The position numbers and the translations under genes are program-made. Below are positions 2,704 through 47,771 of a DNA stretch of 64,000 nt, piece by piece (position 1 is the first letter of the stretch; every line of letters begins with the position of its first letter). Source of the stretch: Bacillus sp. NEB1478 (GTDB lineage Bacteria > Bacillota > Bacilli > Bacillales > Fictibacillaceae); assembly GCF_031582965.1 (NCBI RefSeq), contig NZ_CP134049.1, forward strand, positions 2,356,001-2,420,000. Reading direction: 5' to 3'. Under the pieces are notes generated by a model that searched no databases, was not told where the DNA came from, and saw only the letters and a program-made list of their open reading frames with translations.

Positions 2704-3261
2704 TTATCCGATTTTCTCTTCTTCTTCCCGCATCATAATTTCTTCATTATCGAGCCGTTCTTGTTTGTCTCTAAGTCTGTGGGCGAGGCGGCTGGATGCG
2801 TTTGCTGCGATACTGGCTACGAGGTCATCTAAAAAGGTATGAACCTTTCCATTCGCAATTTTGGTATCAAGCTTTTGTATGATGCCCATCTTAAATTTAT
2901 CTAAGTGACCAAATGTCGTTACCGCAATGCTACCATAGCCAAATACCGCTCCGAGTGCAATCGTTTCATCAACACCAAATAATCCTTCGTCCATTTCAAC
3001 GATGCTTTGCAAGGGCTCGGATAACATTTTTTTCTCGGCTAATATATCCAATTCAACACCTACTAAAATAGCATGCTGAATTTCTCGTTTTGTTAAAACT
3101 GCATCTACACTTTCGATGCAATCTTGTATCGTTAGACCAGGTGAAAACGGAATTTGCATTTCATAAACGATTTCAGCAATTTCCGGAATAGTGACGCCTC
3201 TTTCAATCAGCAATTTTCTTGCTGCTGCTTCAACTTCCCGACTGTGCACTCTCTTTTTCAA
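2704..3261 (-). CDS. pgpA: Phosphatidylglycerophosphatase A family protein (YutG-like)
   Basis: A 185-residue PgpA/YutG-type protein. The family removes phosphate from phosphatidylglycerophosphate to give phosphatidylglycerol for the membrane. Recognisable segments are MDEGLFGVDE (about 88-98), FGYGSIAVTTFG (about 107-118), and HTFLDDLVASIAANASSRLAHR (about 140-162) with the conserved Asp pair. The C-terminal tail is highly charged. The start is TTG at 3261, chosen because AGAGGTG lies about 8 nt upstream. It is divergent from yjcH. Confidence 0.8.
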   Translation of the reverse strand: MKKRVHSREVEAAARKLLIERGVTIPEIAEIVYEMQIPFSPGLTIQDCIESVDAVLTKREIQHAILVGVELDILAEKKMLSEPLQSIVEMDEGLFGVDETIALGAVFGYGSIAVTTFGHLDKFKMGIIQKLDTKIANGKVHTFLDDLVASIAANASSRLAHRLRDKQERLDNEEIMMREEEEKIG

Positions 3262-15281: not shown

Positions 15282-15785
15282 TTACCAGCCGCAACAGTTA
15301 TCGCAGCTGTGGGAACAGCACCTTTCGTGTGTAATTTCACAACAACACATACAATGCTTTTTAACACAATGGCAGTCGCACATATCATCACAACGGTGCT
15401 TTTTATCCCAATGGCAGTCGCACATATCATCACATCGATGCTTTTTATCGCAATGACAGTCGCACATATCATCACAACGGTGTTTTTTATCACAATGGCA
15501 GTCTGGCCATTCATGGTGCTTTTTATGACAATGACAGTCTGGCCATTCATGGTGCTTTTTATGACGGTGACAATCTGGCCATTCCTTGTGTTTTTTATGA
15601 CAGTGACAGTCTGGCCATTCACGGTGCTTTTTATGACAGTGACAGTCACAACAATCATTGTGCTTTTTATGACGGTGACAGTCACAACAATCATCTCTGC
15701 GTACCTTTTTAAAGAGACCTGATGTTTCCCATTTACTTTTATCGTTATGGCAATTATGCTTTTTTTTCAATTTTTTACTTAACAA
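15282..15785 (-). CDS. Cys/His-rich tandem-repeat protein (DCHxxKKH repeats), probable spore coat
   Basis: A 167-residue protein built of nine D-C-H-x-x-K-K-H repeats (about residues 37-141). The N-terminal six are 12 residues apart (W-P-D-C-H type), the last three 14 residues apart (RCDDMCDCH type). The tail is extremely Cys-rich (CMCCC, RCC, NCC). The start is TTG at 15785, nine bases after GGGGAGGTG; the ATG frame to 15824 would contain the ribosome site. The composition suggests metal binding and disulfide or other cross-linking, in the style of repeat coat proteins such as CotG, but no homology is claimed. The opposite strand and a second frame are also open here because of the repeats. 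Confidence 0.75.
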   Translation of the reverse strand: MLSKKLKKKHNCHNDKSKWETSGLFKKVRRDDCCDCHRHKKHNDCCDCHCHKKHREWPDCHCHKKHKEWPDCHRHKKHHEWPDCHCHKKHHEWPDCHCDKKHRCDDMCDCHCDKKHRCDDMCDCHWDKKHRCDDMCDCHCVKKHCMCCCEITHERCCSHSCDNCCGW

Positions 15786-27453: not shown

Positions 27454-27546
27454 ATTTTTGTCTGATTGCTCTTTCTTTTTGTTTGATTACCTTCAATTTT
27501 TGTCTGATTGCTCTCACTATTGATTACCTTCGTTTTTTGTCTGATA
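27454..27546. repeat. 21-bp-period intergenic repeat array, locus 2
   Basis: TTTTTGTCTGATT-type units start at 27454, 27475 (one base changed in the core: GTTTGATT) and 27496, exactly 21 bp apart. A truncated unit follows (27517-27531, about 5 bp shorter) and a final GTCTGATAA unit at 27532. It abuts the stop codon of the convergent GNAT gene at 27550. The core relates to locus 1 (GTTGGATT). Confidence 0.85.
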
Positions 27547-45418: not shown

Positions 45419-45439
45419 ACAAAAAATAAATGATAATGT

Positions 45440-45706
45440 GATGATAAAGAAGAGTACATGAAGTGAAGCTTTTAGAGAGCCTGTGGTTGGTGAAAACAGG
45501 CAGTGAACCTTTGTGGAATGGGCTTTGGAGCATTCTGACCGAACATTTTAGTAGGCTCAGACGTGTATATGTCCGCACGATATAAATGGACGCCGTATCG
45601 GATTATTCCCGTACGTATTGAGTGATTTTCAGTTAATTTGAGAATTATAAGGGTGGCACCGCGGTCCATTCGTCCCTTGCATAAGGCGACGAGTGGGCCT
45701 TTTTAT
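45440..45706 (+). promoter_or_regulatory. T-box riboswitch leader of trpS
   Basis: AAGGGTGGCACCGCGG at 45649-45664 is the T-box sequence that pairs with the free acceptor end of an uncharged tRNA. It is followed by a terminator (GGTCCA..CGTC / GACGAGTGGgcc, 45663-45700) and a T-run. Upstream a long stem I (from about 45470, with AGGCAGTG and several UGG triplets) should contain the Trp specifier, not assigned with certainty. Binding of uncharged tRNA-Trp would favour antitermination and trpS expression. Confidence 0.93.
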
Positions 45707-45734: not shown

Positions 45735-46727
<993 letters not shown>

Positions 46728-46754: not shown

Positions 46755-46807
46755 TAGCTGGCTCTTGATGTCCTGTACTATACATCATTTGAGACCAGCT
46801 TTTTTAA
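46755..46807 (+). terminator. Terminator of trpS
   Basis: AGCTGG-TC-GATGT ... ACATC-GA-CCAGCT stem with large loop, then six T. Confidence 0.9.
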
Positions 46808-46838
46808 TGCAGGTTCGGTATCTGGATGTCGTTTTTTG

Positions 46839-46938
46839 TCGGTTCGGGAGTATATGAAGAATTCTCGGTGAATTACGAGTAAAAGTCGGTGGAATATTGT
46901 TAATTCTCGGTGGAATAACGCCAAAACCCGGTGGATTA
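46839..46938. repeat. 21-bp-period intergenic repeat array, locus 3
   Basis: The CGG of a TCGGTGGAAT-like core starts at 46845, 46866, 46887, 46908 and 46929, each step 21 bp. Central copies read TCGGTGGAAT with variable 11-nt spacers. It fills the gap between the terminators of convergent trpS and yjbA. Not identical in core to loci 1 and 2 but same period and shared GGATT/GGAAT. Confidence 0.85.
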
Positions 46939-46962
46939 TTCATATCTCATTAAAAAAATGAT

Positions 46963-47006
46963 CAAAAAAAGACTCAAAAGTGTTGTTCATCAACGTCTTT
47001 TGAGTA
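46963..47006 (-). terminator. Terminator of yjbA
   Basis: ACTCAAAAG-GTTG / CAAC-TTTTGAGT stem, then seven T on the minus strand. Confidence 0.93.
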
Positions 47007-47024
47007 CTTTTAATATAATTTTAG

Positions 47025-47771
47025 TTAGTTCACATGTGTTCCGTTTTCAAGCTCCCAAATTTTTTCGAAATAAGGCTGACCTTTTACTAACCGTTCACAC
47101 ATATCCAAATGCTGTTTCGACCAGCCGCTTTTTAATTCCCCGTAAAGAGCTTCCCACGCTTCATCAAAATCCATTCTCTGGATTTTCCCGTATGCTTCAG
47201 GCATCCATTCTGTACACCAATAGCGCATTTCAGCGGCATTTTTTGTAGAATGAAGCTGATCGAGTGCCATGAACAGCAGCTGTTTTAATTGTCTTTCTTT
47301 TCTTGTTAAACCTCTCATGCTGTCAGGGTTAGGAGATAGGATATGATATTCTTTGTCTATCTGTCTTTGGCTGAATGTAAAAACTTTTGTATCGGTTTGT
47401 TCTGCCATTTCAAATACAAGCTGTTCTTGTCTCGGAATGAGTCTGCTTTTACGAATTGGAATTCTGTATCCCATTGTATCTGCAATGAGTGATTTCTTCA
47501 TATCTGTGATGATGAAACAATGCTCCAGCTGTACGCGTTGGTTATTTTTTCTTACATACGCTTTTTGATGTACTTCTTCTAATAAGGCATCAGGGAGGTC
47601 ATTTAAATCATTTTCAATATAATGAAAAAGTGTTGATTCTATTTTTAAGATTGGCACTTGATCCAACAACTCAATATAGTCGTCTTTTCGCCATTCATGA
47701 AACTCACAAACGTTATAACCGTTCTCCTCTCCCTCAAACCAGTTGACCCAAACATCACGCAAGTATAACAT
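47025..47771 (-). CDS. yjbA: YjbA family protein (DUF3603)
   Basis: 248 residues, no membrane segment, acidic. [31 protein letters not shown] at the start is characteristic of YjbA proteins; position next to trpS and fabF supports this. GAGGGG precedes ATG. Function unknown. Confidence 0.85.

Follow-up and report, generated by a model that had tools for sequence, protein, structure and literature searches.

The window analyzed here is a stretch of 64,000 nucleotides from Bacillus sp. NEB1478, whose genome is a single contig of 3.93 Mb. Two convergent genes in it enclose a short repeat array. The upstream neighbor, named trpS in an earlier note on this DNA and putatively so here, is a plus-strand open reading frame (ORF) of 329 amino acids (45738–46727) preceded by a T-box leader (45432–45680; RF00230, 127.2 bits). 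The downstream neighbor, putatively yjbA by the same naming, is a minus-strand ORF of 248 amino acids (47025–47771). This T-box and a tRNA were the only Rfam matches in the window, with none at the array. The array had been described as lying between two terminators of convergent genes, and both flanking hairpins indeed fold well: the plus-strand trpS hairpin with its T-run (46756–46805; z = -3.21, 1 of 200 shuffles as good) and the minus-strand yjbA hairpin (46965–47011; z = -3.27, 0 of 200 shuffles as good), the bounds of both being placed by eye. A simple terminator scanner missed these two hairpins.

The array extends from 46827 to 46938 and is read on the plus strand. CGG occurs at 46845, 46866, 46887, 46908 and 46929, which confirms the exact 21-bp steps reported earlier. 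The description of five equal units stands for the spacing but not for the first unit, which is a distinct head (TCGGGAGTATATGAAGAATTC, 46844–46864) that recurs in first position, with variants, in 24 copies. Three units follow in 21-bp steps (46865–46885, 46886–46906 and 46907–46927), and a fourth is represented by its core only (46928–46938). Conservation already begins upstream of the head, at TGTCG (46827), with the TGTCG...TTTTGTCGG motifs of the element (46827–46843; columns -17 to -4 are conserved in 21 aligned copies), and across the family it stops near position +95 relative to the start of the head.

Two further plus-strand arrays lie in the window. One (2454–2537) consists of TTTGTTGGATT units in 21-bp steps and is one of three NEB1478 arrays with these units and the same period. 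The other (27454–27540) has TTTTTGTCTGATTGCTC units with the core TTTTTGTCTGATTG; a tandem repeat finder reported period 21 at 27454–27514, and the remainder was assigned by eye. Tandem repeats of 42 and 36 bp at 15355–15683 are multiples of 3 and possibly coding.

A Dispersed Family with Conserved Heads and Cores

A two-unit pattern derived from the array gave 17 matches in the whole genome, those of the window array included, and none in the reversed control; a relaxed unit pattern gave 92 matches versus 2 in the control. At least 24 arrays of this family, the window array among them, are present in the NEB1478 genome. All share one architecture: TGTC motifs, a head (typically TCGGGAGTATAT) and then 21-bp units, five in all in 19 of the 24 arrays and 2, 4, 4, 6 and 9 in the others. 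Immediately ahead of one copy (L005, about 1396–1479), near-identical tandem stretches (TCGATTTGATGGTGCTCCTGACATG) were noticed by eye.

The earlier observation that spacing is kept while spacer bases vary holds across the family. Steps measure 21 bp in 94 of 96 cases and 20 bp in the other two (the parser permitted 20–22 bp and tried 21 first), and pairwise identity among the 18 regular copies is 0.83 in the core versus 0.31 in the four linker columns, with 0.56 in the A-tract and 0.28–0.30 in the flanks. Whole units are about as similar within an array (0.673) as between arrays (0.668 at the same rank, 0.647 at other ranks).

Divergence between orthologous arrays was measured in a sister family, not in the family of the window, with four sets from the congeners G007, G014 and G005 compared in six pairs that are not all independent. 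Differences amount to 19/191 positions in the head (0.099), 37/348 in the core (0.106), 87/328 in the linker (0.265) and 168/1438 in the flank (0.117). The core differs from the linker with p = 1e-7, a value that is too small because three of the comparisons share one gap. No difference was found between core and flank in these sets (p = 0.64); the flanks are a poor neutral yardstick, since they include coding DNA and terminators. Between orthologues, head and core diverge about 2.5-fold less than linkers, and the elements accordingly look selected. That heads and cores stay alike where linkers are random points to selection acting at each copy. To judge from the sequence, the array in the window is a single copy of a DNA element that is dispersed and selectively maintained in the genome of what is very probably a Fictibacillus.

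One Core Letter Is Usually Shared within an Array

Column 3 of the unit varies between arrays of the family and is nearly constant within them. Units of the same array agree there in 0.94 of pairs, compared with 0.56 after permutation (p = 0.001, the lowest value that 1000 permutations can give; 18 regular arrays out of 24), while none of the remaining 20 columns reached 0.05 in this test. Two arrays, at 1957184 and 2745150, are exceptions with mixed letters. A similar coupling is seen in arrays that begin with the sister-family head A, described below: columns 3 and 5 each agree in 0.91 of within-array pairs, against 0.72 and 0.65 when permuted, and columns 7, 11, 13 and 15 show an excess no larger than about 0.05 (p between 0.001 and 0.04). 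This sample comprises 53 of 65 parsed arrays, with some genomes and short arrays left out and some orthologues included. Slippage or gene conversion would equalize the linkers too, and the linkers differ, so that the single letter of each array seems to be kept by selection, as a specific multi-site binder would impose.

Sister Families in the Genus

For comparison, 80 yjbA-related loci were kept; the nine YjbA relatives at 93%–94% identity all come from Fictibacillus. Inspected by eye, the trpS-yjbA gap of relatives holds other arrays in some cases (clearly in L045, L047 and L050) and none in others. The head plus first unit of the NEB1478 family, searched with up to 2 mismatches, had no match in 99 other genomes, a set that includes 17 congeners. 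The genus is taken here as in the taxonomy of the genome search, outside which some genomes named Fictibacillus fall.

The congeners carry families of their own with the same general plan. In G007, where 25 arrays out of 64 head matches were examined, a strongly conserved head (consensus TTACGGTACGTGTTCTTTTATTTATTACACG) is followed by mostly six units (TTCACGCA). When up to 3 mismatches are allowed, this 31-bp head, here called head A, is present in 17 of the 18 genomes of the genus, the exception being G017, where it was not found, and in 0 of 42 genomes outside it; reversed controls gave 0. Copy number ranges from 6 in NEB1478 up to 64. The cores behind head A are of several types (CACGCA, CGCTCA, CGCCC, CACCGG and others), and the steps in the 65 parsed arrays are 21 bp in 246 cases, 20 bp in 53, 19 bp in 10 and 22 bp in one, with a parser range of 19–22 bp and some of the 19-bp steps falling beyond the end of an array. 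The six NEB1478 copies of head A (L395–L400) are followed by weaker or shorter arrays of ATTCCACATAAA-like units, as if the family were decaying there. A third family has 20-bp units (ATGAGCGATTC) and, in some copies, a hairpin head; inverted repeats occur in the heads of two sister families.

Arrays of the ATGAGCG family of G015 (L342–L353) have about 8–17 units, and their length may vary; their linkers are similar within an array and different between arrays, whereas the other two families have random linkers. Another dispersed repeat, distinct from the arrays, roughly 65–160 bp long and containing GCTCGCTTTCCG, was seen at L179 (about 3065–3156) and at several loci of G007 and G015. A deep common consensus of all families is an impression gained by eye and is not claimed here.

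Occupied gaps mostly differ between species. Of 26 NEB1478 regions, 2 share a gap with a G007 array (25 arrays compared, out of 64 head matches there), where a rough estimate predicts about one, and on this count the idea that one family takes the place of another was rejected.

A Preferred Period of 20–21 bp

Intergenic regions were scanned de novo for their best period between 15 and 45, against a Markov null. Among 26 regions of the NEB1478 genome, a set that excludes 7 regions picked for known arrays, period 21 was found in 8 arrays and period 20 in 4; five had other best periods (one at 15, two at 16, one at 19 and one at 24), and the null gave 1 match. The dominance of 21 and 20 in these unselected regions supports the helical-phase idea put forward earlier. 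Ten other genomes of the genus, sampled in 20 regions, gave 7 at 21, 1 at 20 and 1 at 17 (null 1), and 17 Fictibacillus yjbA loci gave 3 at 21, 1 at 20, 2 at 18 and one each at 15, 16 and 17 (null 2, at 15). Outside the genus, 17 regions, including three whose genomes bear the name Fictibacillus, gave 4 at 21, 1 at 20, 2 at 16 and 1 at 17 (null 2, at 19 and 22), and at least one of the period-21 arrays there (L295) looks like coding DNA. The yjbA loci of other genera (63 loci with 231 kb of intergenic DNA) showed no clear excess: 3 arrays had period 20 and 1 had period 22, while the null produced a single array at each of 18, 19 and 20. Array cores vary from array to array in the genus-wide scans. 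The earlier note had asked whether 21-bp steps might be no commoner than other spacings; within the genus this is not so, and 20–21 bp is preferred.

The base composition of the units also carries a rhythm. A/T-rich and G/C-rich stretches alternate at half the unit length beyond the level of column permutation (Fisher p = 7e-11 over 35 arrays, namely 34 of period 19–22 plus the NEB1478 family, with related arrays included), and 13 arrays of unselected NEB1478 regions gave p = 7e-4. Taken singly, 12 of the 35 arrays fall below 0.05, with a median p of 0.14. In 91 units examined, the A-tract behaves as a block that is either AAAA-like or TTTT-like: the observed versus expected dinucleotide counts are 12 versus 32.4 for TpA, 34 versus 54.2 for ApT, 157 versus 135.5 for AA and 35 versus 15.4 for TT. 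Such block swaps suit DNA better than RNA.

Gap Placement and Replication Polarity

With genes taken as the longest ORFs, not from annotation, the NEB1478 family occupies 14 convergent, 10 tandem and 0 divergent gaps (n = 24), and the arrays examined in G007 occupy 13 convergent, 10 tandem and 0 divergent gaps, with 2 left without assignment (n = 25). Among unselected gaps of NEB1478 and congeners, arrays of period 19–22 were found in 10 of the 53 convergent gaps, in 10 of the 279 tandem gaps and in none of the 79 divergent ones (convergent versus tandem, p = 2.5e-4; convergent versus divergent, p = 6e-5).

The arrays are also oriented with respect to replication, fork direction being judged by GC skew. 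In the NEB1478 family, the head-first direction opposes the fork in 18 of 24 arrays (p = 0.023). The same was observed for 20 of 23 arrays in G007 (p = 5e-4; two of the 25, on a weak-skew contig, were left out, and the count is 21 of 25 if they are assigned by local skew) and for 46 of 56 heads in G005 (p = 1e-6; 46–48 of 56 for any terminus from 1.5 to 2.5 Mb), two genomes that have a family in common and some orthologous copies. For G015, each of the 12 arrays listed has its ATGAGCG strand in the direction of the fork (p = 5e-4). The sign of the polarity thus differs between families, against the fork in two and with it in the third, and the heads may therefore not be equivalent. Gene direction alone is insufficient to explain the rule, since it holds in two G007 tandem gaps of counter-fork genes (95548 and 511090). 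A fork trap was considered and rejected, as the arrays show, by eye, no clustering at the skew switch. The earlier remark that the array fills a gap where no gene control is needed is incomplete as a description: the arrays form a dispersed, conserved and replication-polar family.

A Proposed Phased Docking Track and Its Alternatives

Several features that can be seen in the sequence bear on interpretation: copies are dispersed, the same head recurs, the units are phased, and heads and cores diverge less than linkers. One core letter is likewise usually shared within an array, and both gap preference and replication polarity are evident. Our preferred but tentative reading, to which we give a probability of about 0.45, is that the array may be a phased DNA docking track for a putative DNA-binding protein that forms a polar block at the 3' ends of genes. 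The protein that we infer, putatively sequence specific, would recognize roughly 10–17 conserved bases of each 21-bp unit, and because the units are 20–21 bp apart, all sites would face the same side of the helix. Binding would begin at the head and extend cooperatively over about five or six sites, producing a nucleoprotein block of about 110–150 bp in the DNA between terminators. This block would be directional relative to the fork and, at the 3' ends of genes, could present a polar boundary to machines moving along the DNA. The same-face spacing, the A-tract swaps and the shared letters fit a cooperative DNA-binding protein, and the polarity, together with the position between terminators, suggests that the block may serve as a boundary or roadblock. 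Counting against the docking track are the differing sign of the polarity, the gaps mostly unshared between species and the p of 0.64 for core versus flank. An unlikely extension is an address-coded system of polar boundaries, in which the one or two letters shared by the units of an array would be an address read by matching members of a family of DNA-binding proteins, and direction would let the array stop or load a fork, RNA polymerase or SMC from one side only.

A less probable alternative is that the arrays are non-autonomous mobile elements, whose head and units would be transposase sites and whose copies would survive where they are least harmful, in convergent gaps; entry into single-stranded DNA at forks would then produce the replication polarity. 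Dispersed copies with the same architecture, the absence of matches to the NEB1478 head and first unit in the 99 other genomes, the polarity itself and the empty divergent gaps are all in keeping with such elements. Dead copies, however, would not show linkers as different as flanks while the cores remain alike, nor are linkers that outpace cores in divergence between orthologues expected of them. Mobilization by a RAYT was rejected: G000, G007 and G015 each contain a single match to Y1_Tnp (RAYT-like; G000:C1:349862-350194 at L381, and L380 and L382, respectively), and none of the 3.3-kb loci around these genes holds a 20–21-bp array, L381 giving one weak hit of 24-bp period. Short palindromes of GGGGACAG or GGGGTCAG type lie near the Y1_Tnp matches and may be that gene's own repeats. 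The window array had no match in plasmid and phage records (blastn with words of 11, E 0.01), and viral contigs held 0 exact matches to the sister-family head or to the NEB1478 head plus unit. A mobile origin of some kind, possibly transposon-like, is likely, since the families are dispersed and confined to lineages; such an origin is compatible with later use by the host.

The remaining readings fare less well. It is improbable that the arrays are gyrase or bent-DNA sites, where a 10.5-bp bending pattern would wrap gyrase as positive supercoils collect between convergent genes. The half-period alternation speaks for this, as do the phased 10-bp G/C variation of the E. coli gyrase motif (PMC6379681) and the enrichment of positive supercoiling between convergent genes (PMC8360656). 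The alternation, however, falls below 0.05 in only 12 of the 35 arrays taken singly, bending needs neither conserved core letters nor letters coupled across an array, and a symmetric motif does not predict polarity. Distinctly improbable is a transcribed RNA element that would bind a protein or fold unit by unit. Twenty of the 24 NEB1478 copies do lie 3' of a same-strand ORF, and RNA stacking had been proposed earlier as one cause of the spacing, but the window copy sits beyond a terminator on either side and matches no Rfam family, the fold z scores within the NEB1478 family are -0.31 and +0.51, its alignment contains no structure, with two-sided change at 1 of 10 predicted pairs (18 copies), and the A-tract swaps are awkward for RNA. 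Structured RNA was rejected on these grounds. That the array arose by chance or is what is left of a coding repeat is hardly credible. The period of 21 is a multiple of 3, and the statement that no stop-free frame exists was wrong, as a minus-strand frame of 52 codons (46785–46943) is open through the array. This frame looks incidental, being open in 15 of 18 regular copies versus 15.2 expected from shuffling the linker letters among copies. A coding tandem repeat was rejected, since the family shows no avoidance of stops and sister families have 20-bp units; chance is opposed by the 92 genomic matches versus 2.

Interspersed repeats of bacteria are mostly regarded as mobile parasites in decay. 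In the arrays described here, linkers are random while heads and cores are conserved, and the spacing is locked to two turns of the helix. The units of an array share a core letter that is absent from other arrays of the same genome, and a host function becomes testable. The observations may point to a DNA-binding system at 3' gene ends that is directional relative to replication.

Comparison with Known Systems

Among the titles and abstracts listed in searches of openly licensed PMC papers, none describes such arrays. Plasmid iterons are direct repeats of about 20 bp, helically phased and few per array, and an iteron array sits at a replication origin with an initiator gene. The arrays resemble iterons as phased direct repeats of about 20 bp and differ in that many are dispersed over one chromosome and the window array has no match in plasmid records. 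CRISPR loci have repeats of about 24–40 bp and unique spacers of about 30 bp. Conserved repeats separated by variable stretches of constant length are common to both, but the unit period here is about 20–21 bp, the linkers of about 4–12 bp drift by substitution between orthologues, and the copies are dispersed; we agree with the earlier view that this is not a CRISPR.

The BOX elements of Streptococcus pneumoniae are composite interspersed repeats in which end modules flank a tandem middle module; PMC3049150 describes them as enriched between convergent genes and predicted to fold, with a boxC end, a variable number of boxB modules and 60.8% of copies on the leading strand, a coding bias. The arrays are similar in having a distinct end module, the head, followed by tandem units, mostly five or six. 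Unlike BOX, the NEB1478 family lacks strong secondary structure, the units measure 20–21 bp, the linkers are random and the unit number nearly fixed in two families, and 75%–100% of arrays point in one direction relative to replication, compared with the 60.8% of BOX. REP and REPIN sequences (PMC3733652) are short palindromes tagged GTAG or CGTC, with a RAYT gene flanked by repeats. The arrays are likewise extragenic and dispersed, and a RAYT-like gene is present in the genomes tested; by eye, however, neither consensus nor heads carry a GTAG or CGTC tag, and arrays do not flank the RAYT-like gene.

The E. coli gyrase motif (about 130 bp) has a G/C content phased at 10 bp, to which the half-period alternation of the arrays, strong in combination and below 0.05 in 12 of 35 arrays singly, may correspond, and BIME-2 are, like the arrays, dispersed intergenic repeats, which gyrase cleaves (PMC6379681); sequence-specific cores, coupled letters and polarity set the arrays apart from both. 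The TAACTGA direct repeats of the Beggiatoaceae also form many intergenic direct-repeat sets whose binder is given as not known in PMC4679880. Those repeats are heptamers found mostly just upstream of start codons, whereas the arrays described here have units of 20–21 bp and occupy convergent and tandem gaps.
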